The notes beneath the pieces were generated by a model that saw only the letters and a list, made by a program, of their open reading frames with translations, searched no databases and was not told the origin of the DNA. Below are positions 3,588 through 17,635 of a DNA stretch of 64,000 bases, one piece after another. The stretch is from contig CP103416.1 of the NCBI GenBank assembly GCA_024802545.1, forward strand, positions 2,418,001-2,482,000, written 5' to 3'. Every line of letters begins with the position of its first letter. The stretch's first letter is position 1. This stretch comes from SAR92 clade bacterium H455 (GTDB taxonomy: Bacteria; Pseudomonadota; Gammaproteobacteria; Pseudomonadales; Porticoccaceae). A program made the position numbers and the translations under genes.

Positions 3588-6500
3588 TTAGATCACCTTC
3601 TCGGACTTCAAAAACTGCTCGGTAAACAGCTGCGACGGCAAGGGTTTGCTGACTAAATAGCCTTGAAAAGTATCGCAGCCAAGCTGTTGCAAAATATAAC
3701 GTTGGGCCTCGGTTTCCACCCCCTCGGCAACTGTAGTCATACCGAGATTTTTCGCCAAGGCAATAATACCGGCAACGATGGCGCTGTCACTGGGGTCTGA
3801 CTCAATATCCGAGATAAACGAGCGGTCGATTTTCAATACGTCAACCGGCAACTTCTTAAGATAATTTAGCGATGAATATCCGCTGCCAAAGTCGTCCATG
3901 GCAACAGTGATACCCATTTGTTTAATTTTATTGAGCTCTTTAATCATAAGCTCCGGGTGATCCATCAACGTGCTCTCGGTAATTTCCAACTCGAGAACAT
4001 TTGGCGGCAAGTTGCTGCGTTTGATCAGATTTTGTAACTTGGTATGCAAGTCCTCCTGCATCAGATCCTTAACCGACAGATTTACCGCAAGAGTGAGCCT
4101 GTAACCCTCATCAAGCCAGCGCTTAATCTGTACCGCAGAATTTTCCAGCACCCAATCGGTGAGCTGGTTAATCAGCCCACTCTCCTCGGCCAGGGGAATA
4201 AATACATCAGGTGGCACCAACCCTTTAAGCGGATGTTCCCAGCGTACTAGCGCTTCGGCACCCACAAGGTCGCCGGTCTTGAAGTCAATCTGCGGCTGAT
4301 AGTGCAGGATCAACTGATCGCTATCTATAGCCTTGCGCAACTCCTGCTCTAACTTGAGCCGCTTAGCGATTTCAGCCTCCATACCGCGCTCATAAAAACA
4401 GAAGTCATTACGCTTTTCCTTGGCCCGGAACATTGCCGAATCGGCGTGCTTGATCAGAGCGCTAACATCCTCGCCGTCATCGGGAAAAATAGAGATGCCA
4501 ATACTGGTGGTGACAAACATCTTTTGTTGCATAAAGACGAAGGGCCGCGCCACCGAGCGACAGATCTTCTCAGCGACGCTGGACGCGCCATCAAGGCTGG
4601 CAATATTCTCCAGCACAACAGTGAATTCGTCGCCTCCAAGGCGGGCAACAAAATCATTTTCACGGACACAGTGACGAATGCGATCCGCGACCGCCTTAAG
4701 CAACAAATCACCCGCATCGTGCCCCATGGTGTCATTGATCATTTTGAAGCGATCCAGATCGAGGAATAAAATTGCAAAGCGCTGATTCTCGGTGGCCGCT
4801 CGATTAACCGTGACAGCTAACTGCTGTTTTAAATAAGTACGATTGGGCAAACCGGTTAGTGGATCGTGATAGGCAAGCTTCTTAACATCTTGCTCTGCTT
4901 TGTTGGCCTTAATCAGTCGCGCCACGCGCTGTTTGATCACCGAGAAGTTGATCGGTTTGGAGATGTAGTCTGTGGCACCGGAGGAAAAGGCCCGAATGAT
5001 CGACTGTTCATCATTCAGCGCGGTGATCATTAGCACCGGAATATCACTGCCATGGGGAAGTTCACGAATCATCTGGCAGGCATCAAAACCGTCTAGTTCA
5101 GGCATAACCGCGTCCATCAACACTAGGTCCGGCATATGGCGTTTGCAGATATTTAGGGCCTGCATGCCGTTGCTGGCCTCTTCAACCTCATAGTTTTCCC
5201 GAGTAAAGGCATCGACCAATGCCATACGCACAGTACGGTCATCGTCGACTACTAAAATATTGCTCGAGTTTGCGGTTTTCAAGGGGATTTTTGCGCTCTC
5301 ATCATCCAGAGAAATCTCCTGTTTAAGATCATTCTGCAACACATCAAAGGCTACAGAAATCCTTTTCAGTAATTGCTCCCCATCACTGAGATCTTCCTGA
5401 GTCGCGCCCTCTTCCAACCGCTTGCTCGCGGCGACTAGCTCAATGGCGCCAAAATTCGCCGCACTGCCTTTGATGGTATGGGCCATATCACGCACCTGGC
5501 GCGCATTGTTGTCCTTAAGGGCTACTTCTAGCTTGGCAATATAGATCGGTGTGTCTTCTACAAAGGCGTTGATCATCGACGACACCACCTCACCCACAGC
5601 CTCACGCAATGAGGCAATCACCTTGACGTCATAACTTAGGCCGGAGTATTTGGCGGCGGGCTGTTTCACCTTGGCCGCAGAGTCCTCAGTGGGTTCCTCG
5701 CCTGGCATTTCGTTTTGTTCTTGATCCTGAACTGACTCATCGGCATACCAAACCACCAGTTTTTCACGCAGTCCGGCTAAGCTTAGAGGCTTAGGCAAAA
5801 AATCACTCATACCGGCTTCGCGACAAATCAGCTCTTCATTTTTCGAGTTATTCGCAGTCATGGCGATAATTGGCAGCGTGCCAGCTTTACTACCTTCGTA
5901 GATTCTTATCTGCTTGGTGGCGTCATAGCCATTCATGACGGGCATATTGCAGTCCATAAAGACCAGGTCATAATCTTCGCGAACGACTTTCTCTAGGGCC
6001 TCTTTACCGTTGTTGGCCAGTGTCGCCTCGCAGCCGAGGCGCTCTAGCATAGCAACTGCAACCTGCTGATTAGCACGGCTGTCATCGACCACTAAAATTT
6101 TGCATAAGCGAGGAATCACCGCCTGTTCAGGCAATAGGTCGTCATCGATACCAGCGCCACTGCCATTACCACTACCAGCAACAAAGTATTTGGTTAATAT
6201 GTTCACCAGTGAATTGGAGCGCAATGGTTTATTCAGCCGAGGCAGGGCCAGTTCGCTGGTCTCAACATCTTTATACCAGGGGTTGCTGATCATCACTGCA
6301 GGCCCTTGGCCAAAGTTTGGCTCTAACTTGATAAACCTGAGCAGCTCATTAATTTTAATATCGCTTAGGTCCTGATCAATAAAAAGAATATCGAAACAAT
6401 CCCCTGCCTGACGCTGACGCTGACGCATAATATCCAAGGCTTGCAAACCCGATTCAGCAAATTCGGCTTTGACATCTAGGACTCTAAATTGCTGTGCGGC

Positions 6501-8183
6501 AAAACCACGAAGAATTTCACTGGCGCTGACAAACAGAGCACTAATATTTTCCAGGCCACTCACGGCTTTGCCATCCTCAGCCTCCACTTCAGATGACTGC
6601 GCCACCAGTAGTGGCAGAGTAAAGCCAAACTGACTGCCCTCACCCAGCGTACTGGCGACAAAAATATCACCGCCCATTAATTCAACAATCTGGCTGCTGA
6701 TCGCCAGACCTAAGCCAGTGCCTTGATAACCTTTGGTGTTTGAAGAGTCCACCTGAGTGAAAGCCTCAAAAATTCGCGCCTGATCCTCCGGTGCTATACC
6801 TATGCCTGTATCCTTAACGATAAATCTCACACGCACTGTTGAGCCCGCACCCTTGCGGTCCTGAGGCACCTGACCCGACGCGCCGGAAGCCATCTTCTCA
6901 TCATCATGAAGACTAATATGAATTGAGACCTCGCCGCGCTCGGTAAATTTAAGGGCATTGCCCGCTAGATTAATCAGTACCTGGCGAATTCTATCGCTAT
7001 CGCTATGCAGCGCTAAGGGAACATCATCATCGATTATATAGCCGATATTAAGATGCTTTTTAAGGGCCGTGCTGGAGAGTAAACCCACTACTTCATCAAG
7101 ACTTTCATGGAGCATGTAATCGCGATTAGTAATGCTTATTTTACCGGCATCGGCCTCAGAAAAATTGAGAATATCATCGATCAGTGCCAGCAGATTGTCC
7201 CCAGAGGATTTCGCTGTCTGCACATATTCCTGCTGCTTAAGGCTCAGCCCCATCGTGGTCAACAGATCTAACATACCCAGCACTGCATTCATCGGCGTGC
7301 GCAATTCATGGGTTACATTGGCGGCAAATTCCACTTTCATATCGGCAGATGTCATAGCCATTTTCATCGCCCGCTTCAGTTCTCGACGACGGTTTTCAAG
7401 CACCTGCATCATCCGATTAAAGGATTTTTGCATATCGGTAATATCCACCGGCCCCTGTATCTCAGCGCGAATTTTCTCTTCACCCTGCTGGGCTCGCTTC
7501 ATCACTGTGGATAAACGTTCAATTGGGGTGGTCAGACGGCGGGAGAAATAGAGCAAGGCAAAGAGCAAAATAATCGCGCCAACAAATGACCCTATTAAGT
7601 TATTTTGCAATATACTTTTTTGCATCTTATGGAGAGTGTCTTTGCCCACTACCACAGTGATGTATCCCAACAGAACATGGTCACTGCTTGCTGTATCCAT
7701 CACTTGGTGGTCATCGGCACTGCTGGTATAGACCGGGGAAGCGAATTTCCAAAAATCGATATTTTCCGATATCAAACTGAGTTCGGTAGCTTTTTCACTC
7801 GCCGCCTCAGGAGTCTGCAGGGTATCCTGATCAACAAAATCACTGCTATCGGCGACAAACATCGAACCCGTGGAAAACAACACATCCGACTTATCCGTTT
7901 CAATCAATATTCCCTTTACACCGGGAAAGTTCATCGCATCCTCGCCAATATCGCTAGCGGCCTCAGGACTCTGGTATAGCAGTGCAATTTCACTGCGCCG
8001 CGCCAGAGATTCAGTTACCTGTTTGCCCTGGAGCACCTCGTGTTCTTCGATAATCGAACTTGAAATTTTGCTTACGGTAACCGATGTGACGAAAGCCAAC
8101 ACTAGAATGCCGAAAATAAAGACTAGGGATATCTGGGTTTTAAAGCGCAACTTATCAAACCAATTAGGTTTTAGTCTAGGCAT
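3588..8183 (-). CDS. Hybrid sensor histidine kinase with REC, HPt, GGDEF and EAL domains
   Basis: A 1531-residue inner-membrane signalling protein. Order: TM1 about 16-38; a periplasmic region 39-190; TM2 about 196-214; HAMP 215-265; HisKA with VTHELRTPMN (phosphoacceptor His292); HATPase about 390-525 (DTGIGIA, GTGLGLAIS); a divergent receiver-like region 547-665 (possible acceptor Asp603/605); REC 694-810 (Asp744); HPt with AHTIKGSA (His902); REC 975-1095 (Asp1024); GGDEF 1183-1187 intact, preceded by an RxxD inhibitory site (Arg1174-Asp1177); EAL 1310-1312 followed by the NLS, DDFGSGYSSL and EGVE motifs of active phosphodiesterases. It therefore combines a BarA-like phosphorelay with a bifunctional c-di-GMP module. 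Only 6 bases separate it from the upstream binding protein, so the two are cotranscribed, and that protein may deliver the signal to the periplasmic region (inference). Confidence 0.95.
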   Translation of the reverse strand: MPRLKPNWFDKLRFKTQISLVFIFGILVLAFVTSVTVSKISSSIIEEHEVLQGKQVTESLARRSEIALLYQSPEAASDIGEDAMNFPGVKGILIETDKSDVLFSTGSMFVADSSDFVDQDTLQTPEAASEKATELSLISENIDFWKFASPVYTSSADDHQVMDTASSDHVLLGYITVVVGKDTLHKMQKSILQNNLIGSFVGAIILLFALLYFSRRLTTPIERLSTVMKRAQQGEEKIRAEIQGPVDITDMQKSFNRMMQVLENRRRELKRAMKMAMTSADMKVEFAANVTHELRTPMNAVLGMLDLLTTMGLSLKQQEYVQTAKSSGDNLLALIDDILNFSEADAGKISITNRDYMLHESLDEVVGLLSSTALKKHLNIGYIIDDDVPLALHSDSDRIRQVLINLAGNALKFTERGEVSIHISLHDDEKMASGASGQVPQDRKGAGSTVRVRFIVKDTGIGIAPEDQARIFEAFTQVDSSNTKGYQGTGLGLAISSQIVELMGGDIFVASTLGEGSQFGFTLPLLVAQSSEVEAEDGKAVSGLENISALFVSASEILRGFAAQQFRVLDVKAEFAESGLQALDIMRQRQRQAGDCFDILFIDQDLSDIKINELLRFIKLEPNFGQGPAVMISNPWYKDVETSELALPRLNKPLRSNSLVNILTKYFVAGSGNGSGAGIDDDLLPEQAVIPRLCKILVVDDSRANQQVAVAMLERLGCEATLANNGKEALEKVVREDYDLVFMDCNMPVMNGYDATKQIRIYEGSKAGTLPIIAMTANNSKNEELICREAGMSDFLPKPLSLAGLREKLVVWYADESVQDQEQNEMPGEEPTEDSAAKVKQPAAKYSGLSYDVKVIASLREAVGEVVSSMINAFVEDTPIYIAKLEVALKDNNARQVRDMAHTIKGSAANFGAIELVAASKRLEEGATQEDLSDGEQLLKRISVAFDVLQNDLKQEISLDDESAKIPLKTANSSNILVVDDDRTVRMALVDAFTRENYEVEEASNGMQALNICKRHMPDLVLMDAVMPELDGFDACQMIRELPHGSDIPVLMITALNDEQSIIRAFSSGATDYISKPINFSVIKQRVARLIKANKAEQDVKKLAYHDPLTGLPNRTYLKQQLAVTVNRAATENQRFAILFLDLDRFKMINDTMGHDAGDLLLKAVADRIRHCVRENDFVARLGGDEFTVVLENIASLDGASSVAEKICRSVARPFVFMQQKMFVTTSIGISIFPDDGEDVSALIKHADSAMFRAKEKRNDFCFYERGMEAEIAKRLKLEQELRKAIDSDQLILHYQPQIDFKTGDLVGAEALVRWEHPLKGLVPPDVFIPLAEESGLINQLTDWVLENSAVQIKRWLDEGYRLTLAVNLSVKDLMQEDLHTKLQNLIKRSNLPPNVLELEITESTLMDHPELMIKELNKIKQMGITVAMDDFGSGYSSLNYLKKLPVDVLKIDRSFISDIESDPSDSAIVAGIIALAKNLGMTTVAEGVETEAQRYILQQLGCDTFQGYLVSKPLPSQLFTEQFLKSEKVI

Positions 8184-8189
8184 AAGTGA

Positions 8190-9128
8190 TCACCGCGCTG
8201 GGAGGACTAGATCGATGTGCTCACGCATATCATCGGTCAAATTAATCCCTAGATGGTTGCTGGTGCGCTCATTGAGGGTAACGAATACATCGCTCAATGG
8301 CTGCATTTTCCGAGCTATCTCTGCGCATTCAGTAAATGGCTGATCGTCGGCAATGATCTGCGCCAGATGTCCAAGACTTAAACCCATCTTGTAGTTATTG
8401 GGATAGACAGAAAACAGCGCGCCACGCTTTACATGTACCGGGTTCGATGAGAACACCACAAAGCGCTTTTCCCAAGACTCCTGCAACAATATAGATAACA
8501 TCGCATTGTTAACAAATGAGCCGCTCGGCAGAATCCATAAAGCGTCGTCCTCACCTAAGGTTTGCATCAGATTGCGATAGACTGTTGCTGCAGTCCTGAT
8601 ATCTTCGGCCTCATGAATAACCAAGCTGAGGCCTTGAAGTCCCTCAGACTCTTGTAACGGGGAGCTTCCCACCTCCAGATTAAAATCACCGACAGTGGTT
8701 CCCGGCTTAGCAATCACATGAACCTTTTTAACGCTGGGAACTAAAAACCGCAACTTACTGGATATGGCTTCAAAACTAGGGGTCAGGCTGATCCCATAAA
8801 CCCTGTTAAATTCACCATTAACCGCACCGACTATTACTTTGTGTTGTAGGTTCTGCTTGGAGACCTGCCGGGCCAAGCGATTGCCCAGCACCAATACTGG
8901 AGACTGCCTGTCGAGAACATGGACAAAGTCCACGGGAGACTGATTTTCTGCTAATGCGACGCGCTGCACCTGCTGCCCATAACCGTCCTCAGCACCTCGA
9001 ACAATTTCTTCAAAGACACGGGCAAATGGCTCTCGCACCTGTGGGTAGACGATCACCAGCTCAACCGCGGCAGCGGTAACGCTGCGGCAGAAGATCAGTG
9101 CTACAAGGGCAATAAACAGCGCCCGCAT
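8190..9128 (-). CDS. Periplasmic ABC-type substrate-binding protein (PF04392-like)
   Basis: A 312-residue exported protein: N-terminal signal ALFIALVALIFCRSVTAAA, then a two-lobe binding-protein body. The first lobe contains PVLVLGNRLARQV and a VIVGAVNGEFNRVYGISLTPSFEA stretch, and the second KVHVIAKPG and ALWILPSGSFVNNAMLSILL, matching the ABC_sub_bind (PF04392) type found beside sensors and TonB receptors. No permease or ATPase gene is nearby, so a sensory rather than transport role is likely (inference). Upstream, AGGAGG lies about 25 bases from the ATG with a small CTATAA/TTATAG hairpin between them that would bring it to normal distance. Confidence 0.75.
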   Translation of the reverse strand: MRALFIALVALIFCRSVTAAAVELVIVYPQVREPFARVFEEIVRGAEDGYGQQVQRVALAENQSPVDFVHVLDRQSPVLVLGNRLARQVSKQNLQHKVIVGAVNGEFNRVYGISLTPSFEAISSKLRFLVPSVKKVHVIAKPGTTVGDFNLEVGSSPLQESEGLQGLSLVIHEAEDIRTAATVYRNLMQTLGEDDALWILPSGSFVNNAMLSILLQESWEKRFVVFSSNPVHVKRGALFSVYPNNYKMGLSLGHLAQIIADDQPFTECAEIARKMQPLSDVFVTLNERTSNHLGINLTDDMREHIDLVLPAR

Positions 9129-9169
9129 GCTCCCTATAATTTTTATAGCACTACCTCCTGTACTGCTGT

Positions 9170-9208
9170 AAAAAGAGCTAGCAAATTGCCTTAACGGCTT
9201 GCTAGCTC
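9170..9208 (-). terminator. Rho-independent terminator after the TonB receptor gene
   Basis: A perfect 10-bp stem (GAGCTAGCAA at 9175-9184 with TTGCTAGCTC at 9199-9208) encloses a 14-base loop that can itself pair (GCC/GGC). On the minus strand it is followed by five T residues (9170-9174). It separates the enzyme/receptor operon from the binding-protein/sensor pair, so readthrough would be partial at most. Confidence 0.85.
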
Positions 9209-9234
9209 ATCTATGTCTACATATTAATACTAGT

Positions 9235-11367
9235 TCAAAAGCTGTAGCGAATCTCGCCCAATAGAGCTCTGCCCGACAACGGCAAGTCATTGGGAATAAA
9301 TGGCATGGGATCAGAGTTGGGGCTCGGTTCACGGGCGTCTTCGTCAAATAGGTTGTTCACTGTCAAAGCAAACTCAAAGGCGTTACTCATGACTTTTCGC
9401 AGTGACAGATCAAATAGGATGTAGTCGTCTATATCTGGTCGCATATCCCCACTGAGACGATTGCGATCCATAACCCAATTGGCACGCACATTAAGCCGCC
9501 AATCTTTCGGCAAGATCCAGTCAGCACGCAGATAGAGCTGCTTTTCTGGGGACTTGGCTGCAGGCACATCCTGTGTTTCATCGGTGGAATTTTGCACCGC
9601 GAAATTACCGGTCAGAGTGAAATTATCCGTTGCCTGCCAGGTCGCCTCAAACTCCATACCATAGCCTGTCTGTTCTCCAGAGTTTTGCGCGGTGCGAGTA
9701 CTATTATTAGTATCGGGAATAAACTGGATAATATCGGTCCAGTCGTAATAGAAAAAATTCGTCATCAATGTCAGTTCATAATTGGGTCGATAATCAAACG
9801 CCAATTCATAGCTTTTAATCTCTTCCGGCTTAAGATTGATATTGCCGAGAATTAAAGGGTTATTAATTGCCCGCGTTTGAGCAAATGAAGGGGCGCGAAA
9901 CGCCTCGCCGTAGAGTAACTTTGTGGTTAATTTGTAACTGGTAGACCAGACCAAGGCCAACCTTGGATTGGTGGTGGCACCGAAATCCGAGTAGTTATCA
10001 TGTCGCAGCCCTGCGGTTAATTCCCAGTCATTGGCTAACTGCCAGACATCCTGAAGAAACACATATCTATTATCACGACTGTCTTCGGTGAGGAATACGT
10101 AGAGACTGTCGGACACATCAACCAATGGATCACCAGGCAAAATTGGCAATTCAGTCTCTGGATTAATGCCAAAGTTTTTCCACTCGGTTATTTTGTCAAT
10201 TTCACCATCGTAATAGCCGGCGCCAGCACTGATACGATGTTTTTCGATACCGCTGTGCTCCATGCGCACACCGAAGCGAGCATGCCGTTCAAAAATCTCT
10301 GGATTGCCTATTACGCCATCGGGAAAGGGGGGAAATATCGGTAACCCGGACAGATCAAGAAAGGGACCAGTAGAACCGGCTGGGTAGAGAATAAAGTTAC
10401 CCTCCACTTCCTGAGAGGTATCAAAATAACTGGTTTGAAACTCAACTAAGGTGTTATCAAATATCTCCTCATCAGTGTAGGTGAGATCTATATTGAATCG
10501 TTGACTGGAAAATTTGTTTCCTGGATTAAGTGCTTGAGCTGCACCGGCGCCATCACCGATATTATTGCGAATCTGACTGCCCGCTCTGAGCCGCAATTTT
10601 TTGTAACTTGCCTCAAGACGCAAATCAATATTCTCAGCAGAGCGATTAACTGAACCTGGGGCATTTGAAACTGCAGTTCCAGTAATGAAATCAAGTAGGC
10701 TTTGAGCATCGCTGCTGATCACCGCATCAGATCCATCAGTTTTCGTAAACTCAATGGTGCCCATATAACCTAGCTCACCTTTTTCGCCCGCCCCAGTAAC
10801 CCAAACATCCGTAGTATCAAAAGAGCCGACTCTTACCCCGGCAGAATTATGCTTAACCTCATCGGGAGTCTTGGTAACTATATTGATCACTCCGGCAAAG
10901 GCGTCGGCACCATAGAGTGCTGAACCGGGTCCGCGAATAACTTCTATTCGCGAGATCGCTTCAACCGGCATACCGCCCCAAACAACATTGCGATCGCCCT
11001 GAAATAAATTGGTAATGGGAATGCCATTGATGAGCATTAGAACTTGAGGGTTGAAGTCTGAAGAAATACCGCGGAAAAGATATTGCGCATTATATCCAAT
11101 CACGTCACGACTTATATGCAAACCGGGAACCGATTCTAAGATCTGGTCAATATCTCGAGCGCCCAAAGCACGTATCTGGCTGGCAGTAATAACTGATGCC
11201 ACCGCCGGTGCTTTGGCGATTGGCTGGGTGGTGCCTGTAGCAATTGAAACATAGTCTTCATCACCGTAGAAACCGGCGAAATCAACATCTGAGTTAAGAG
11301 AATTTTCGGCAAATGCCCCATTGCAATTCAGAATTAATAAGAAAAATACTGCATACAGCTTAGTCAT
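9235..11367 (-). CDS. TonB-dependent outer-membrane receptor
   Basis: A 710-residue outer-membrane beta-barrel receptor. Signal peptide (YAVFFLLILNCNGAFA), a TonB-box-like segment (DYVSIATG, about residues 37-44), plug domain from residue 50 (PAVASVITASQIRALGARDIDQILESVPG, then VIRGPGSALYGADAFAGVINIVTK) and a barrel ending in the aromatic RYSF. Energised import of a scarce ligand via TonB/ExbBD is the family role. It begins 3 bases after the stop of the citrate-synthase-like gene upstream, so it is the distal gene of that operon. Nothing in the sequence fixes the ligand. No Fur-like box was identified. Confidence 0.93.
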   Translation of the reverse strand: MTKLYAVFFLLILNCNGAFAENSLNSDVDFAGFYGDEDYVSIATGTTQPIAKAPAVASVITASQIRALGARDIDQILESVPGLHISRDVIGYNAQYLFRGISSDFNPQVLMLINGIPITNLFQGDRNVVWGGMPVEAISRIEVIRGPGSALYGADAFAGVINIVTKTPDEVKHNSAGVRVGSFDTTDVWVTGAGEKGELGYMGTIEFTKTDGSDAVISSDAQSLLDFITGTAVSNAPGSVNRSAENIDLRLEASYKKLRLRAGSQIRNNIGDGAGAAQALNPGNKFSSQRFNIDLTYTDEEIFDNTLVEFQTSYFDTSQEVEGNFILYPAGSTGPFLDLSGLPIFPPFPDGVIGNPEIFERHARFGVRMEHSGIEKHRISAGAGYYDGEIDKITEWKNFGINPETELPILPGDPLVDVSDSLYVFLTEDSRDNRYVFLQDVWQLANDWELTAGLRHDNYSDFGATTNPRLALVWSTSYKLTTKLLYGEAFRAPSFAQTRAINNPLILGNINLKPEEIKSYELAFDYRPNYELTLMTNFFYYDWTDIIQFIPDTNNSTRTAQNSGEQTGYGMEFEATWQATDNFTLTGNFAVQNSTDETQDVPAAKSPEKQLYLRADWILPKDWRLNVRANWVMDRNRLSGDMRPDIDDYILFDLSLRKVMSNAFEFALTVNNLFDEDAREPSPNSDPMPFIPNDLPLSGRALLGEIRYSF

Positions 11368-11370
11368 TAT

Positions 11371-12177
11371 TCACACCCTCCAGTGCTTGACTGTCTCGCC
11401 TCCCGTATAGTTGAGGCGAGCAGTCCGTAAGGGAAAAAAACATCCTTCCTGCTGATTTGATGCATCTATAAAACAAGGCATCGCACCAGCAGTGAAGGCT
11501 AACGTCGCCATATGATAAAAATCCATAGGGCTCAGTTCTTCATCAGCCAATAAACCAGCACAGACTGCTGCAATATTGATTTGGTATTTAAATCGACTAG
11601 CGGCTAAATACTCCGCTACAGCAAAGGCTAATTTGATATATTTGCCTTCACCGCAGCCTATTGAACGAGCAAAATTCATCATCGGTTCTACTCGTTCATC
11701 CGCCGTAACTAAGGGCCTTCCATAGCCGTAGACACTGCGATACTGCTTTAACTCTGCTCGAACAATTTGCTCTAGGTCCTCACCCTCAGCTAATCGCTTA
11801 TCCGCGCGGTATAAAAAATCTGTCGCTCCTTTAATTGGCTTTAGCCCATAAATTGTCGCCTCGGTAACCGCTACTGATGCGGCTGCAGCAAGTGCTCCTG
11901 TGGAGCGGGCGGTGCCGGCCAGTGCTGATACACGATTATTCCAAATGCGCGGATCTGGAAAGCTGGTACAAATAACCCACATACCCTCCATTAGTCGTGA
12001 AATCTGCGGTGATTTTTTCCCGGTGCTGGCTAACAGCAAATACTCCATCCATGAGCTGTTATTTAATTCCTTAAACACATCTTTTCCACGCAATACTACC
12101 TTCTCGCCAGGAAACCAACCGCCCATTGAGGTGCGCCAATTATCCTCAAACTTCTCTAACTTACTGTGAACCGACAT
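11371..12177 (-). CDS. Small citrate-synthase-fold protein A, active-site residues missing
   Basis: A 268-residue protein resembling the C-terminal citrate synthase/citryl-CoA lyase region. The helix IWNNRVSALAGTARSTGALAAAASVAVTEA, the loop GYGRPLVTADERVEPM and the tail TARLNYTGG can be aligned by eye with the GSSGANP, GFGHRVYKNYDPR and RQLYTG segments of citrate synthase. At the catalytic positions His264 becomes Pro, His305 becomes Arg and Asp362 becomes Asn or Ile (E. coli GltA numbering, manual alignment). It sits 27 bases after a second protein of the same fold and 3 bases before the TonB receptor. It may be a pseudoenzyme partner in a heteromer, or catalyse different CoA chemistry. Function unknown. 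Confidence 0.7.
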   Translation of the reverse strand: MSVHSKLEKFEDNWRTSMGGWFPGEKVVLRGKDVFKELNNSSWMEYLLLASTGKKSPQISRLMEGMWVICTSFPDPRIWNNRVSALAGTARSTGALAAAASVAVTEATIYGLKPIKGATDFLYRADKRLAEGEDLEQIVRAELKQYRSVYGYGRPLVTADERVEPMMNFARSIGCGEGKYIKLAFAVAEYLAASRFKYQINIAAVCAGLLADEELSPMDFYHMATLAFTAGAMPCFIDASNQQEGCFFPLRTARLNYTGGETVKHWRV

Positions 12178-12204
12178 ACAGTTTTCTCACTGGACCGAAT
12201 GGCC

Positions 12205-12996
12205 TCACGGATTTAATTTGAAACCGTTGGCGAAAAACGGGTATTTTCGCCAACCCAGCCTCTCTTGCTCAAGACTGTGAACTGCCGCTCCTGGGAGGCG
12301 CAATAGTAAAAACAGCATCTCAGCTTGTTCAGGCAAAAACTCAAGATCTTGGAGGGCAGCGGCAGCGACACCGGAAAAAGCCAAGGGGCATCCGGCAAAC
12401 TCTTCTAATGCGGTGCGATTGTCATTCAGCCATTGAAGGTGTGAGCCTTTGCCGACGTCGATGAGATGTGCCAGAGTCTGTTTGACTGGGGTCGGGCAAC
12501 TGACACCATTGGGATCAAATCCCGGCGCGTGCTCCATAGGCAGCCAGACATCTTCTCGGCCAAGCTGAGGCGGCTCTTTGATCAACTGCTGCCAGGCCTC
12601 CAGACTAGTCCCGCACTGCTGCCAATACTCCATAGCATGAAAGACTTCACGAGATCCCCCCAAGTTACCGGCTCCCACAGAGAGTGCAGCGATCAGCGCA
12701 GAGGCGTGTGTAGAGCCACCCACTCCAGCACTCATGGCAGCTCTAACGCTGTGATCTCTTGGCCCGGGATTGGCTAGTGCAACGGCCAACCCTTCAAGTA
12801 GTGCTGACTGTTCGGGCGTTGGCTGCTGCTGCTTAAAGAGCAGGTAGAGATAATCTATATAACTAGCGTTTTTTAATAGATCGCCGTAAACATCATAGCC
12901 ACCGCAAAAACAGCTTGCGGCGGCGAATTGGTTGTCAGACTCGGGGGTTTCACGCCAGATTTTTGTTTCAATAGTTTCAACAATTTCTTCAGGCAT
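12205..12996 (-). CDS. Small citrate-synthase-fold protein B, active-site residues missing
   Basis: A 263-residue paralogue-like partner of the downstream gene. The run RAAMSAGVGGSTHASALIAALSVG followed by NLGGSREVFHAM matches the core helices of citrate synthases and citryl-CoA lyases, and its length is like the free citryl-CoA lyase subunit. The GFGHRV histidine is replaced (GFDPNGV), the preceding ADH-type motif reads ANPGP, and the VD aspartate segment reads PLAFSG. So the canonical acid-base residues appear to be absent. The ATG overlaps the end of the ThDP-enzyme gene by 8 bases, showing tight coupling. The sequence is clearly divergent from protein A, so this is not a recent duplication. 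Confidence 0.7.
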   Translation of the reverse strand: MPEEIVETIETKIWRETPESDNQFAAASCFCGGYDVYGDLLKNASYIDYLYLLFKQQQPTPEQSALLEGLAVALANPGPRDHSVRAAMSAGVGGSTHASALIAALSVGAGNLGGSREVFHAMEYWQQCGTSLEAWQQLIKEPPQLGREDVWLPMEHAPGFDPNGVSCPTPVKQTLAHLIDVGKGSHLQWLNDNRTALEEFAGCPLAFSGVAAAALQDLEFLPEQAEMLFLLLRLPGAAVHSLEQERLGWRKYPFFANGFKLNP

Positions 12997-14809
12997 GTTT
13001 AATTTTCAGCACATTGGTTCTAAGTGCGATTGGCGGTGCTTCAGTAACGTCAATGCGCACATCGAGAACCGTTGGTCCTTTGCGTGCGCAGATAGTGTTG
13101 ATATCCAGGCTATTTAAGTCTGCAGGTGAATGAATAATATGACCCGGCGCGCCCATTGCCTCAGCCAGGGCCGAAAAATCTACAGGAGTTAACTTATTCG
13201 CAGTTGGTTCTGCACCAGTGAGCATTTGACCATGCTTAACCATGCCATAGGCATGGTCATTTAAAATCACAAAAATAAGGGTTAACTTTTCTTCTATCGC
13301 CACGGTGAGTTCCTGACCGCTCATCAGCCAACTGCCATCACCGGTAATACATACCACAGGGGTATTATCCAAAGCCAAACTGGTTCCCACAGCACTACCA
13401 ATAGCCCAGCCCATTGACGCAAAATCCATTGATGCGCTAAACAAACCTCCATGGCCTCGCATACCCGCAAGACGACGATCAAACGGGTGTAAATAATGTG
13501 TGCCCCAGGCGAAACTATTACCAGAGTCAGCTAAATAACGTGTATGCGGAGGAAATAGCTGTGGGAGGTAGTACATCAGACGTTGCGGTTTGATTGGTGT
13601 AGCGTCGCTGTTATAAGCAGCGAGATTGTCGCAGTCAAAATGCATTGTTAAATCGGCAGAAGACTTTTTCTTATCCTGTTTAACGGCCTTTTTATCCTTA
13701 ATGTCAACAACCGCTCTCAGAGGTGATCCCTTTGGATTCCCATATTGGCTATCTAGCCGATTAAAGATGGTTTCAAGGCAGCCTCTGACATGGAGTTTTG
13801 CCATTGGCGTCCGAGTTAAATTTGCCTCAGTGGATTCCACATGTATCAACTTGCCGTTAAGAAGAAGTTTGGTGTCCCAGGCATTACTGGAAAACTCACC
13901 AAAACGAGCGCCAATTGCAATCACCAAATCGACGCTGGGATCTATGAGCAACTGTTTCGCAGAATTATGCCCAGCAAAGCCAATAACACCCTTAAATAGA
14001 GGGTGATAAGGGCTGACCAAACCTTTGCCATGGGGCGTTACGATAATTTTTGCATCGATTTCAGAAGCAATACTCAAAATACTAACAATCGCCTCACTGG
14101 CTTCGTCGCCAATAATAAACACTGGATTCCGAGCCCGAGTGATCTCAACATTGAGTTTGGCAACGGCTTTCTCGTCAATCAGCGCCGGCCTATCCAATAA
14201 GTTATCCAATTGATAATGAGTCTGGCTGATAAGGTTATCCATCGCCATCACATCCCGCGGCACGCTGATATGAGCGGGACCAGCTGGGGAGCCCATAGCC
14301 GACATAATGGCGGCGGCAAGTTTATGTTCAAACTGGTCAACATGGGAAATAAGAGTATTGTATCTGGTGCAGTGGGAGTAGAGGCCGACAGTGTTGACCC
14401 CGGTGCAGGAAGAGTCCTGAATGGCGCCTTTACCAAAGGTTGAGATTGCCGTTTGCGCGGTGATCACTAACATTGGCACATTATTTTCGTAGGCGGAGGC
14501 GACCCCGGTAATCATATTGGTTGCGCCGGGCCCAGTGGTTGAGCAGCAGACTCCCAGCTTGCCGCTGTTTCTGGCGTAGCCATCGGCCATAAAGGCGGCG
14601 CCGGTTTCGTGGCGAGCTACTACAGCGCGCACTCCACCCCGTCGTTCACTGCGTGCTAGAGCATCGTAGAGTGGTTCTATGGCGCCTCCTGGCACCCCAA
14701 AAACATATTCAACTCCCAGTTGTTCAAGGTAAGCGACTAGTAAATCCGCCATTTTTGGCCCCATTGGTGTAACAGCCCGGCACCGTTCTCTACCTTCTAT
14801 GTCGGTCAT
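12989..14809 (-). CDS. Thiamine-diphosphate-dependent enzyme of the acetolactate synthase family
   Basis: A roughly 606-residue member of the POX/AHAS-like ThDP family. The N-terminal PYR domain has GVPGGAIEPLYDAL and RHETGAAFMADGYAR, whose Glu (about residue 68) activates the cofactor; the central domain has the GDEASEAIVSI region; the C-terminal PP domain has GDGSWLM and LNDHAYGM (the Mg-ThDP GDG-N motif). A Lys-rich insert lies around residues 350-380. There is no neighbouring ilvN-type regulatory subunit, so branched-chain synthesis is unlikely. The start is set at 14809 because AGGA lies 6 bases before it; a start 4 codons upstream lacks a ribosome site. It heads the operon with the two citrate-synthase-fold genes and the TonB receptor. 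Substrate unknown: carboligase, decarboxylase or acyl transferase are all possible. Confidence 0.85.
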   Translation of the reverse strand: MTDIEGRERCRAVTPMGPKMADLLVAYLEQLGVEYVFGVPGGAIEPLYDALARSERRGGVRAVVARHETGAAFMADGYARNSGKLGVCCSTTGPGATNMITGVASAYENNVPMLVITAQTAISTFGKGAIQDSSCTGVNTVGLYSHCTRYNTLISHVDQFEHKLAAAIMSAMGSPAGPAHISVPRDVMAMDNLISQTHYQLDNLLDRPALIDEKAVAKLNVEITRARNPVFIIGDEASEAIVSILSIASEIDAKIIVTPHGKGLVSPYHPLFKGVIGFAGHNSAKQLLIDPSVDLVIAIGARFGEFSSNAWDTKLLLNGKLIHVESTEANLTRTPMAKLHVRGCLETIFNRLDSQYGNPKGSPLRAVVDIKDKKAVKQDKKKSSADLTMHFDCDNLAAYNSDATPIKPQRLMYYLPQLFPPHTRYLADSGNSFAWGTHYLHPFDRRLAGMRGHGGLFSASMDFASMGWAIGSAVGTSLALDNTPVVCITGDGSWLMSGQELTVAIEEKLTLIFVILNDHAYGMVKHGQMLTGAEPTANKLTPVDFSALAEAMGAPGHIIHSPADLNSLDINTICARKGPTVLDVRIDVTEAPPIALRTNVLKIKHA

Positions 14810-14869
14810 TTTTTTCCTCATAAATTAATGCGATACACAGAAATGTTGATGTATTTTTTGCTAAATTTA

Positions 14870-14898
14870 TTAATAGATGATTAATTGCCCCTTATCAA
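14870..14898 (-). promoter_or_regulatory. Predicted sigma-70 promoter of the ThDP/TonB-receptor operon
   Basis: Minus-strand TTGATA (14893-14898) and TATTAA (14870-14875) are separated by 17 bases in an AT-rich intergenic stretch. A start site near 14863 would leave a leader of about 54 bases to the chosen start of the ThDP enzyme gene. Confidence 0.5.
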
Positions 14899-14948: not shown

Positions 14949-14976
14949 TCGACATAGGCCCCTGAGTGGTTACAAT
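14949..14976 (+). promoter_or_regulatory. Predicted promoter of the VC0807-like gene
   Basis: TCGACA (14949-14954) and TACAAT (14971-14976), 16 bases apart. The element overlaps a possible ATG at 14966, which supports the downstream start at 15005 for the gene it serves. Confidence 0.4.
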
Positions 14977-15004
14977 GCGCGTCTATACTGCGCAAAAGAA
15001 AACT

Positions 15005-15736
15005 ATGACTGACAGCACTGACAGACAACCACAGCCCAGCGAAAAGAAAGACAGCCCACAAAAAGAGAGCCTGCTGCTCAATCTGGCGTTTAATATCGCC
15101 ATACCCACTCTGGTGCTGACTAAACTCAGCGGCGCAGACTACCTGGGGATTAAGCTGGCAATTATTGTGGCCCTATCATTTCCGATTATTTACGGTGTCC
15201 GCGACTTTTTTGTCCGCGGCAAAATCAACTTCTTCTCGGCATTGGGGGTGGTCAGCGTTGCCTTGACCGGCGGCATTAGCCTGATGGAGTTAGATGCGAT
15301 TTATATAGCGATTAAAGAGGCCAGTATTCCGGCCCTCTTTGGTCTGGCGACACTGATTTCACTGAAAACCTCGCAACCACTAATTCATACTTTTTTGCTC
15401 AACGATTCGGTGCTTGAGATCGATAAGATCAATGCCTCGCTGCTGAGCCGCAACCGTAAACCGGAATTTGATCAGCTGCTGATCAATGCGTCCTGGATTC
15501 TGGCTGGCTCATTTTTGCTCTCTGCGGTACTGAACTATTTCCTCGCGGTGTATTTATTGACAGCAGATCCCGGCACTCAGGCCTTTAATGAGCAGCTCGG
15601 CAAAATGACCGCGCTCAGCTTTCCGGTGATCGCAGTGCCCGCTATGTTGGTGATGATTGGCGATATGTTTTACCTCTTTAGAGGCATCACCCGTATTACC
15701 GGGCTGTCCCTAGACGAAATTATTAAACAGAAATAA
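15005..15736 (+). CDS. VC0807-family integral membrane protein
   Basis: About 243 residues with several hydrophobic helices: LLLNLAFNIAIPTLVL, IKLAIIVALSFPIIYGV, FFSALGVVSVALTGGISL, IPALFGLATLISL, WILAGSFLLSAVLNYFLAVYLL and FPVIAVPAMLVMIGDMFYLF. The pattern fits the VC0807 family, often labelled as a putative transporter or septation-type membrane protein without proven function. The start at 15005 is preferred over 14966 because the latter lies within the predicted -10 region. It is followed after 12 bases by yciI and is probably cotranscribed with it. Confidence 0.75.
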   Translation: MTDSTDRQPQPSEKKDSPQKESLLLNLAFNIAIPTLVLTKLSGADYLGIKLAIIVALSFPIIYGVRDFFVRGKINFFSALGVVSVALTGGISLMELDAIYIAIKEASIPALFGLATLISLKTSQPLIHTFLLNDSVLEIDKINASLLSRNRKPEFDQLLINASWILAGSFLLSAVLNYFLAVYLLTADPGTQAFNEQLGKMTALSFPVIAVPAMLVMIGDMFYLFRGITRITGLSLDEIIKQK

Positions 15737-15748
15737 AAGAGTAAATTT

Positions 15749-16048
15749 ATGTGGTACGCAATAATCAGTGAAGATATTGAAAACAGCCTTGCACAGCGCT
15801 TAGCAGCCCGCCCGGCCCATTTGCAGCGACTGCAAGAATTAAAAGATGATGGTCGTCTATTTGTTGCCGGCCCCCATCCGGCAATAGATTCTATGGAGCC
15901 CGGTGAGGCCGGATTTACCGGCAGTTTGGTGATCGCTGAATTCCCATCGCTTACACAGGCTCAGCAGTGGGCCGATGCCGACCCCTTTGTCACAGCAGGT
16001 GTCTACCAGCAAGTAACAGTTAAACCGTTCAAAAAAGTACTGCCTTAG
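15749..16048 (+). CDS. yciI: YciI-like protein
   Basis: A 99-residue member of the YciI/YCII family, a small ferredoxin-like alpha-beta fold. [26 protein letters not shown] contains the conserved R-x-x-H element, DGRLFVAGP the next conserved block, and [20 protein letters not shown] the C-terminal signature. Biochemical role unsettled; some relatives act as lyases or dehydrochlorinases on small molecules. Its partner upstream is a membrane protein, as in many gammaproteobacteria. Confidence 0.88.
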
Positions 16049-16177
16049 CAGGCTGCTGTAACTGCTAGCCTGCCCTACCACAGACTAACGTGACATAATG
16101 ATTAGCAGTCAAATGGTTATCATTTGCTGCTGATCAGAGTATTATCCAACCCTTTCTAACTTATCGTTTTTGAAACC

Positions 16178-16930
16178 ATGAAATATCTCTTTTTGGCAGT
16201 ACCGATTTTAGCCCTATCCATCAGCCATTCTCTGTTTGCTCAGGAGGCTGCAAATCTCGACGCCGTGGATACAGCAACCCCAGAAAAAATTGAAGAAAAA
16301 ACTCAAGAGAAAGTTTATCTGCAGAATAAATCGGTCTGGGTTAGCGATGAATTTCTTGTGCCAATGCGCTCTTCTCCCTGCGATCGCTGCACCATTGTTC
16401 ATCGCGGTATTAAGTCCGGCACCAAACTCCAGCTTCTAGAAATGGTTGATGGCTGGGGACATCTGGTCACCAGTAGCGGTACCGAAGGCTGGATGGAAGA
16501 GCAGTATCTGGTGGATCAGCCGATTGCTCGCATTAGAGTAGAAGCCCAGCAGAAAGAGCTGGCGGCCCTGCAGCAGCGCAATAGCGAGCTGGTAAAAATA
16601 CTTGGCGAACTGAATGAGGCATCAAAAGCGGTGCGTGGTGAACTCGACAATAGCCAAGCTAACCAAAAGAATTTGGCCAATGAGCTAGCTGAGATCCGCG
16701 AGATCTCCTCGGACTCCATCGCCCTCAGTCAACAGAACCAGCAACTGGTGAAAAATAACCATATGCTGCAGCGAGAGAATGATTCGCTAAAGGCGAATGT
16801 CGATGATCTGCAAAAAGACCAGCGCAATGAGTCATTTCTCTATGGCGGCTTAACCGTATTTCTCGGAGCTATCCTAGTGATCCTGATTCCGAAACTGCGC
16901 GGTCGCAAACGTTTTTCTGAATGGCAGTAG
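16178..16930 (+). CDS. SH3-domain membrane protein, YgiM/TIGR04211-like
   Basis: A 250-residue envelope protein. Signal sequence FLAVPILALSISHSLFA, then a bacterial SH3 domain (about residues 48-112, SVWVSDEFLVPMRSSPCDRCTIVHRG to GWGHLVTSSGTEGWMEEQYL), a long Gln/Glu/Asn-rich coiled coil (about 120-215) and one C-terminal transmembrane helix (LTVFLGAILVILIPKL) with a basic cytoplasmic tail. This architecture is that of YgiM-type proteins. Role unknown, presumably periplasmic binding and oligomerisation. Two cysteines in PCDRC may form a disulfide. Confidence 0.8.
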   Translation: MKYLFLAVPILALSISHSLFAQEAANLDAVDTATPEKIEEKTQEKVYLQNKSVWVSDEFLVPMRSSPCDRCTIVHRGIKSGTKLQLLEMVDGWGHLVTSSGTEGWMEEQYLVDQPIARIRVEAQQKELAALQQRNSELVKILGELNEASKAVRGELDNSQANQKNLANELAEIREISSDSIALSQQNQQLVKNNHMLQRENDSLKANVDDLQKDQRNESFLYGGLTVFLGAILVILIPKLRGRKRFSEWQ

Positions 16931-16978
16931 TACGCCACCCAAACAAAATTATTTCTAAGCAAATAACTCGGAGGCAGT

Positions 16979-17635
16979 ATGCAAAACGTCGATCAAAAAT
17001 TATTCAGCCGTTTACTGCTGGTTTCTCTGGTGCTGCTATGCCAGGCTTTCTCCACAAGTGCTTACGCCGAAAACCCACAGATTAAACTGCAAACTGATAT
17101 GGGGGATATCCTCATTGAACTCTATCCAGAGCAGGCTCCAGTCTCAGTGGATAACTTTGTTAAGCACGCTAATAGCTTCCACTACGACGGTCTAATTTTT
17201 CATCGGGTGATCAAGGGCTTTATGATTCAGAGCGGCGGTCATACCTTTGATCTAACACCCCGTGAATCAGAGCGCGCACCAATTATCAATGAATCATTCA
17301 ATGGATTAAGCAATAGTCGCGGCACCATCGCCATGGCGCGCACCAATGATCCCGATAGTGCCAAAGCACAGTTTTTTATCAATCATGGCAACAATAAATC
17401 CCTCAATGCCCGCGGCTCAAAGGCTGGCTATGCAGTGTTTGGCTCCGTGATTAAAGGCATGGATGTGGTCGATGCTATAGCTGAGACTAAGGTGGCGACT
17501 ATGGGCATGTATCAAAATGTGCCTGTCACTGCTATTCGCATTCTCAGTGCCCGCTTGCTCAACCCGGATACTTGGAAGCCTCTTGCAGAACCGAAGACCT
17601 TGCCGGCCTTTGAAAAGCCAATCCCTATTCGCTAG
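16979..17635 (+). CDS. Exported cyclophilin-type peptidyl-prolyl isomerase
   Basis: A 218-residue cyclophilin with an N-terminal signal (LLLVSLVLLCQAFSTSAYA), so periplasmic like PpiA. Core motifs: IELYPEQAPVSVDNFVKH, FHRVIKGFMIQSGG (catalytic Arg of FHRVI), GTIAMART and AQFFINHGNN. Bacterial cyclophilins commonly lack the eukaryotic Trp position, as here. A GGAG ribosome site (TCGGAGGCAG) lies 7 to 10 bases upstream of the ATG. A 7-bp inverted repeat overlapping the stop (17633-17651) could act as a weak terminator. Confidence 0.9.
   Translation: MQNVDQKLFSRLLLVSLVLLCQAFSTSAYAENPQIKLQTDMGDILIELYPEQAPVSVDNFVKHANSFHYDGLIFHRVIKGFMIQSGGHTFDLTPRESERAPIINESFNGLSNSRGTIAMARTNDPDSAKAQFFINHGNNKSLNARGSKAGYAVFGSVIKGMDVVDAIAETKVATMGMYQNVPVTAIRILSARLLNPDTWKPLAEPKTLPAFEKPIPIR

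Follow-up and report, generated by a model that had tools for sequence, protein, structure and literature searches.

A widespread, apparently undescribed gene set linking a ThDP enzyme and two altered citryl-CoA-lyase-fold proteins to a TonB receptor and sensing genes, with a possible role in small-molecule signalling

A 64,000 bp stretch of the genome of SAR92 clade bacterium H455 (GenBank accession number CP103416.1, positions 2,418,001 to 2,482,000), here called the window, carries on its minus strand a compact group of genes for a thiamine diphosphate (ThDP)-dependent enzyme, two proteins with the citryl-CoA lyase fold (A and B) and a TonB-dependent outer-membrane receptor (TBDT), followed by genes for a periplasmic binding protein and a large sensor kinase. 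The first four had been proposed, from the DNA sequence alone, to form an undescribed operon with a predicted promoter and a strong terminator. The six genes and the two associated sites are as follows.

14870..14898, minus strand: promoter-like site TTGATA-17-TATTAA upstream of the ThDP enzyme gene, from an alignment of relatives
12989..14809, minus strand: ThDP-dependent carboligase/decarboxylase-type enzyme, 606 aa (610 aa from the start at 14821 given by the open reading frame caller)
12205..12996, minus strand: A, citryl-CoA-lyase-fold subunit, 263 aa, without the GFGH histidine, Glu243 and His240 retained
11371..12177, minus strand: B, citryl-CoA-lyase-fold subunit, 268 aa, with an invariant Arg154 for the GFGH histidine
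9235..11367, minus strand: TBDT, 710 aa, Pfam Plug and TonB_dep_Rec domains, signal-peptide-like start by eye
9170..9208, minus strand: hairpin and U-run between the TBDT and binding-protein genes, terminator or attenuator, from folding
8190..9128, minus strand: periplasmic binding protein, Pfam match to PF04392, added to the set here
3588..8183, minus strand: sensor kinase, sCache_4-HAMP-HisKA-HATPase-REC-REC-Hpt-REC-GGDEF-EAL, 1531 aa, added to the set here

The four genes of the original prediction lie where it had placed them, with an overlap of 8 bases between the ThDP and A genes followed by gaps of 27 and 3 bases. The ThDP start was moved to 14809 because five aligned relatives (L032, L034, L035, L036 and L038) have the second ATG only; residue numbers for this protein are counted from 14821. 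One of these, L032 (strain MOLA455, Porticoccaceae), is a near relative of the window, its A protein being 95 % identical. Both predicted sites were also found, and neither was listed by the pattern scan. In the promoter-like site all six aligned sequences, window included, agree in the first five positions of the -10 hexamer, and four of the six have TTGATA. Folding of 9160–9234 gave a strong hairpin (−24 kcal/mol, z −3.45), and a sequence resembling the hairpin region, folded in the window only, occurs in three aligned relatives.

The TBDT passes the Pfam gathering score for its plug and beta-barrel domains, and its top NCBIfam matches are models of heme, siderophore and B12 receptors, the best 25 of 34 all falling below the cut-off. 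No secretion signal is evident in the ThDP enzyme, A or B, while the starts of the TBDT and the binding protein look, by eye, like signal peptides. In plasmid records A matched just three proteins, annotated as citryl-CoA lyase and about 25 % identical, and neither the ThDP enzyme (E≤1e-60) nor B (E≤1e-5) had a match. On the other side of the cluster, divergent genes at 14966–17635 (VC0807-family, YciI-like, SH3-like and peptidyl-prolyl-isomerase-like) are found beside it in six of 64 neighbourhoods, all from the window's family.

When other genomes were searched, the set proved not to be a local arrangement. A was found in 47 of the 112 genomes of the family, and the ThDP enzyme (E≤1e-120) in 50, namely all 47 with A together with G033, G074 and G095. 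The binding protein (E≤1e-10) was found in 49, comprising 45 of the 47 genomes with A as well as G011, G017, G029 and G095. Fisher tests within the family, which ignore kinship, gave 2e-28 for A with the ThDP enzyme and 4e-24 for A with the binding protein. In the order, where slightly different sets of 390 and 381 genomes were searched for the two proteins, 44 genomes had both A and the ThDP enzyme, three A alone and eight the ThDP enzyme alone; ten weaker lyase-type matches, none from a genome with a ThDP match at E≤1e-100, were removed before counting. At E≤0.001, weak lyase matches included, a search of 369 genomes of the class found A in 43, and one of 398 genomes of the phylum found it in 28.

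Gene neighbourhoods were fetched for 60 matches picked over the score range, 14 more and 11 led by the ThDP enzyme. The resulting table of 69 consists of 61 core loci (A of at least 100 bits, 40 families) and eight loci of lone citryl-CoA lyases, and leaves out L190–L192, L194, L195, L206–L216 and the close relatives L001–L038. The 61 core loci include 59 with B, 58 with the ThDP enzyme, 49 with the TBDT, 38 each with the binding protein and a kinase, and 35 with a GGDEF/EAL gene. For the 47 well-covered ones, flanked on each side by 6.5 kb or more, the corresponding counts are 46, 46, 41, 35, 36 and 31. At the eight lone-lyase loci, B, the ThDP enzyme, the TBDT and the binding protein were all absent, and a kinase and a GGDEF/EAL gene were found once each. 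In a control of 20 other 18-kb places in 14 of the same genomes, there was no ThDP enzyme, no binding protein and one weaker TBDT match; TBDT homologues of at least 300 bits were present at 41 of the 47 well-covered core loci and at none of the 20 control places. The genes thus occur together, within the family and across families, more than chance would explain, A and B being accompanied by the ThDP enzyme and mostly by the TBDT in about 40 families, some of them outside the class. In four genomes of family f246, outside the class (L184, L185, L188 and L189), the genes are packed in the order TBDT, A, B, ThDP enzyme, binding protein and kinase, unlike that of the window. Beyond the six genes, the next commonest neighbour cluster occurs in only nine of 64 loci; it holds ABC ATPases, and the single member scanned, from L100, shows two ABC domains with a C-terminal domain of the ABC-F type. 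Among the 40 largest neighbour clusters there is no recurring permease family.

The two genes added here belong to the same system as the other four, and the binding protein together with the kinase/GGDEF-EAL gene is the strongest functional clue. While the four genes of the original prediction are real, it had missed this pair just downstream. A kinase adjoins the binding protein in the neighbourhoods compared gene by gene, secretion and membrane location being predicted from sequence. In the window both signalling halves are fused into one protein of 1531 residues, in which the sCache_4 match, at 18.4 bits, is below the Pfam cut-off of 22.1. In L091 and L130 the sensor is split in two, an sCache_4 kinase that adjoins the binding protein and a REC-REC-PAS-GGDEF-EAL protein that adjoins the ThDP enzyme. 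In L093 the second protein, beside the ThDP enzyme, is REC-SpoIIE, accompanied by genes that read as STAS- and Che-like. The partner kinases of L091, L093 and L130 have sCache_4-HAMP-HisKA, and those of L106 and L107 gave no sCache_4 match. Chemotaxis-type genes flank the cluster in L091, L093, L095, L096, L098, L099, L102 and L110, identified as a methyl-accepting chemotaxis protein by domain scan in L091 and by clustering or reading of the sequence in the others.

Of the 47 well-covered core loci, ten did not pass a strict test for any kinase, REC, GGDEF or EAL. The domain scan nevertheless found signalling genes in three of these, a hybrid kinase in L114, a chemoreceptor in L132 and a giant kinase with a LuxR-type regulator in L186. 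A looser comparison found kinases in L184 and L189, and neighbours in L110 and L187 cluster with or resemble signalling genes, leaving L109, L112 and L125 as neighbourhoods in which no signalling gene was recognised. Some core loci with no receptor in reach still carry signalling genes, hybrid kinases in L113 and L114 and the kinase and LuxR-type regulator in L186. In L186 (10392–16198) and L187 (10825–16655), both outside the class, the ThDP, A and B genes are followed by a protein of 1727–1730 residues and a LuxR-type response regulator. The large protein of L186 is a Ser/Thr kinase (Pkinase)-AAA-GAF-HisKA_3 protein, its LuxR-type regulator was also scanned, and L187 has a gene of the same size.

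The ThDP protein has the features of its enzyme superfamily, with all three Pfam TPP_enzyme domains (N, M and C), the catalytic Glu72 shared by all 68 aligned homologues and the GDG motif of the GDG-N signature in 67 of 68, the remaining one being masked. It is below the cut-off of every NCBIfam model among the best 25 of 58, including TIGR00118 for the large subunit of acetolactate synthase, where it scores 291 bits and the cut-off is 538. The acetolactate synthase motif GMVKQWQ reads GMVKHGQ in the window, so that Gly531 stands at the position of the Trp, as it does in 66 of 68 homologues. In L111 (6776–9433), in a genome of 1.5 Mb, the ThDP enzyme and A are fused in one open frame of 886 residues, which points to the two acting in consecutive steps. 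In L119 (5081–15883) a single A-B pair lies between two ThDP and two receptor genes, with a short-chain dehydrogenase.

A lies upstream of B on the same strand in all 65 pairs examined, no more than 100 bases away in 51 of them, and the median overlap is 4 bases when the most upstream start is used. Neither protein gave a Pfam match at E≤0.1, and both fell far short of the cut-offs of the NCBIfam citryl-CoA lyase models (PRK06224; 45.5 against 245 bits for A and 40.9 against 193 for B), while the lone relatives L146 and L141 pass the cut-offs of their citryl-CoA lyase models. The suggestion that both are citrate-synthase-fold proteins of citryl-CoA lyase size was borne out by profile comparison with hhalign against the eight lone citryl-CoA lyases (99.8 % probability for A and 99.6 % for B), and by structure prediction, the top Foldseek match of both models being the citryl-CoA lyase 6HXP with probability 1.00. 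The models, built from eight and seven closely related rows, are of low confidence (mean pLDDT 59.8 and Foldseek E 0.03 for A, 48.6 and 6e-4 for B), so the claims about residues rest on alignments with lyases, in which A is represented by 69 sequences and B by 61, among them close relatives.

The alignments revealed altered active sites in both proteins. The histidines of the GFGH and HGGA motifs and an acidic residue are canonical active-site residues of citrate synthase and ATP-citrate lyase. The GFGH motif is mostly represented by GFDP or GFGS in A and by GYGR in B. At the position of its histidine, A (position 162) has Pro in 43, Ser in 11 and Thr in four of 69 sequences, with no His among the six commonest residues, and B has Arg154 in all 61. 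The HGGA histidine is replaced in B by Tyr110 (58 of 61) or Phe (three of 61). In A this position is Leu in 33, as in the window, His in 12 and Tyr in nine of 69, and a minority of A proteins may therefore keep this histidine. The acidic residue is retained, as Glu243 in 66 of 69 A and as Asp or Glu238 in 59 of 61 B sequences, and B also retains Arg162 of the DPR motif, Trp79 and Asn81 in 61 of 61 each. Judged by these residues and scores, the proteins of the set are not an ordinary acetolactate synthase or citrate synthase. Our reading of the alignments is that A and B form a linked pair with new, non-citrate chemistry, and they are probably a heterodimer derived from a duplicated citryl-CoA lyase.

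An indication of what this chemistry might be comes from a genome of the same family, G095 (L190, a single contig), in which A is absent. Here a KASIII (3-ketoacyl-acyl carrier protein synthase III) protein of 316 residues (10554–11501) lies between the ThDP enzyme and the receptor, 22 bases from the ThDP gene, and is followed by the receptor, binding protein and fused kinase of an otherwise complete cluster. KASIII/FabH enzymes are a condensing family with a Cys-His-Asn triad. The L190 protein has the ACP_syn_III Pfam domains above cut-off, is below the cut-offs of the NCBIfam FabH models, and has Cys111, His243 and an Asn in the KASIII triad context, in common with the KASIII of L215. Other KASIII-type matches in the window's family are only 22–29 % identical to it. 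The ThDP enzymes of G095 and G094, the latter linked to A/B, are sisters (SH-aLRT 96), and the exchange therefore looks recent. In G409 (L215), from another family, a 44 % identical KASIII adjoins a ThDP enzyme of a separate clade and A was not found; among 14 chosen genomes, G409 included, the L215 KASIII was found only in G409 at E≤1e-20. As KASIII stands in the place of A and B, this suggests that A and B carry out a CoA-thioester condensation or acyl transfer, probably of condensation type. Several other candidates for such replacements were set aside. ThDP-only matches in families f9 and f13 (L206, L207 and L209–L212) are mostly near contig ends, so that A and B may lie outside the sequence available. 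L208 is one more ThDP gene with no partners in view, and L191 and L192 are ThDP fragments of 321 and 290 aa; none of these loci, the ThDP-only matches included, was taken as a replacement.

Taken together, these observations can be read as a unit in which the ThDP enzyme, A and B make a small molecule that is then sensed via the receptor, binding protein and kinase, with cyclic di-GMP (c-di-GMP) or chemotaxis as the output, an interpretation that we regard as having an even chance of being right. It fits the presence of enzymes with no evident secretion signal beside a receptor and binding protein with signal-peptide-like starts and a sensor kinase. In the cytoplasm, the ThDP enzyme would decarboxylate a 2-oxo acid and link the resulting activated carbonyl to another, rather bulky substrate as acceptor, and the A/B pair would then perform the proposed condensation or acyl transfer. 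The small product would leave the cell, and the product, or a complex of it, would enter the periplasm through the TonB receptor, where the PF04392 protein would bind it and report to the sensor kinase. In the window the kinase phosphorelay would drive the GGDEF/EAL output, and in other lineages the output would run via a separate GGDEF-EAL regulator, a REC-SpoIIE protein or a chemotaxis system. Sporadic genes that might tailor a product occur near some loci, a sulfotransferase between the receptor and A in L134 (7344–8600, domain-scanned) and L135 (9097–10395, same cluster), short-chain dehydrogenases in L112, L119 and L125, a vanadium-chloroperoxidase-like protein (PF21167, PF22778) adjoining the receptor gene in L094 (4724–6226) and an O-methyltransferase in L118. 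They are too scattered to define the product.

Several observations weigh against this interpretation. The terminator-like hairpin separates the receptor gene from those for the binding protein and sensor, and the six genes may therefore not share one transcript. The binding protein is lacking from 12 and the receptor from six of the 47 well-covered core loci, and the loci of families f254 and f267, outside the class (L182, L183, L186 and L187, some on short contigs), have the ThDP enzyme, A and B with neither receptor nor binding protein in reach, so that a cluster need not have the sensing part nearby. Signalling genes are also common elsewhere, the strict test being passed by 37 of 47 core loci, seven of 20 control places and two of eight lone-lyase loci, and the association with a kinase is modest when taken by itself (p 0.0015, kinship ignored). 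The KASIII replacement rests on two genomes. In the second of these, at L215, the KASIII and ThDP genes lie on opposite strands, the ThDP reading frame is broken in two, and the 12-kb contig showed no recognisable receptor or binding protein. The candidate product, the ligand and an export gene are all hypothetical, and the binding protein and kinase could equally sense a foreign nutrient.

The last point leads to the possibility, rather unlikely in our view, that the genes serve nutrient capture and breakdown, the receptor importing a compound from outside, which the binding protein and kinase sense, and the ThDP enzyme and A/B cleaving it via CoA thioesters. A receptor, binding protein and kinase beside enzymes would suit substrate-induced uptake, A and B descend from a lyase-type fold, and ThDP enzymes both cleave and join. 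A few loci also have CoA-related genes close by. An acyl-CoA dehydrogenase-type cluster occurs in L129 (scanned), L134 and L135 and also in the lone-lyase locus L144, while L182 has an AMP-binding ligase and L187 a MaoC/short-chain dehydrogenase protein. However, the commonest neighbours beyond the six genes, a minority of all neighbours having been domain-scanned, are the ABC ATPases of only nine loci, and the family that replaces A and B is a condensing one. The original prediction had offered two models, import followed by C–C cleavage and production with re-uptake by the receptor, and because of the KASIII replacement in one relative the second lies nearer the evidence.

The product envisaged in that second model was an iron chelator, for which we found no specific support. 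A metallophore pathway, in which the ThDP enzyme and A/B would make an alpha-hydroxy-carboxylate-type chelator, the receptor would retrieve the metal complex and the binding protein and kinase would sense it, is improbable. TonB receptors often import metal chelates, in keeping with the sub-threshold best matches of the TBDT, and there is a precedent for a citrate-synthase-like enzyme in siderophore production, SbnG of the staphyloferrin B pathway. Yet neither an NRPS-independent siderophore (NIS) synthetase nor a nonribosomal peptide synthetase (NRPS) was recognised among the recurring neighbours, some of which were domain-scanned, and the partners that do recur are kinase and c-di-GMP genes. 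That the enzymes are ordinary paralogues of acetolactate synthase and of citrate synthase, lying beside a receptor gene by chance, is very hard to sustain. They share the folds and superfamilies, but their scores are below the curated cut-offs among the models listed, Gly531 stands in place of the acetolactate synthase Trp in 66 of 68 homologues, the GFGH histidine is lost from both A and B, and the linkage extends over 40 families.

Within the data searched, the genes were thus neither confined to this species nor found to have close characterised homologues with such ordinary roles. No description of the gene set was seen in the titles and opening lines of abstracts of the open-literature matches listed, and in passages of Caulobacter papers that name both citryl-CoA lyase and a TonB-dependent receptor, the former term labels a citrate lyase beta chain. 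As the genes co-occur widely and those matches contained no account of them, there is support for reading them as a functionally linked set that is apparently undescribed. The original interpretation is overall partly supported, and the observation on which it was based is confirmed.

A more ambitious proposal, which we advance tentatively, is that this is a widespread unrecognised signalling circuit with its own class of signal. The ThDP enzyme and a catalytically rewired citryl-CoA-lyase-fold heterodimer (KASIII in some lineages) would make an autoinducer that re-enters via a TonB receptor of its own. The binding protein and kinase would then read this signal and set c-di-GMP and chemotaxis. 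If so, bacteria of about 40 sampled families, including small-genome marine Porticoccaceae, would share a hidden small-molecule sensing circuit. It would include a new type of synthase, in which the citrate-synthase fold has been rebuilt as a two-subunit enzyme with an Arg for the catalytic His, and would place a TonB receptor within a signal path. The cluster is compact, with three enzymes and one binding protein.

Among known enzymes, the closest to the ThDP protein with solved structures are BbmA and CsmA (8X3X and 8X3Z; 1e-82 and 1e-67), which have the same small Gly in place of the acetolactate synthase Trp but are only distantly similar in sequence; no reaction for either was found in the portions of the open literature searched. 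Biosynthetic acetolactate synthase of the IlvB type shares the superfamily domains and the catalytic Glu, and differs in the Trp position and in the score, which in the window is little more than half the cut-off. The citryl-CoA lyase and the CCL module of ATP-citrate lyase (6HXP and 6HXJ) share the fold, length and acidic position of A and B, and the DPR Arg of B, whereas A and B lack the GFGH histidine, B and most A proteins lack that of HGGA, and the two are found together as a pair. For the circuit as a whole, the nearest parallels are LuxP/LuxQ in autoinducer-2 (AI-2) sensing and NspS/MbaA, which likewise pair a periplasmic binding protein with a membrane sensor that has a kinase or GGDEF-EAL output. 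The corresponding feature here is a predicted secreted binding protein that adjoins a predicted membrane kinase, and linked signal synthesis would be the logic shared with the LuxP/LuxQ type. Here, however, the binding protein is of the PF04392 type, a TonB receptor is part of the cluster, and the ThDP enzyme and a citryl-CoA-lyase-fold synthase would take the place of LuxS. The signal synthases PqsBC and PpyS are acyl-CoA condensing enzymes of the KASIII type that produce diffusible signals, PqsBC as a heterodimer, and a KASIII replaces A and B in one relative of the window; they have the thiolase fold, unlike A and B. The logic of the circuit may therefore resemble that of LuxPQ or of PQS-type systems, with A, B and the ThDP enzyme departing from the citryl-CoA lyases and acetolactate synthases in the features compared here.

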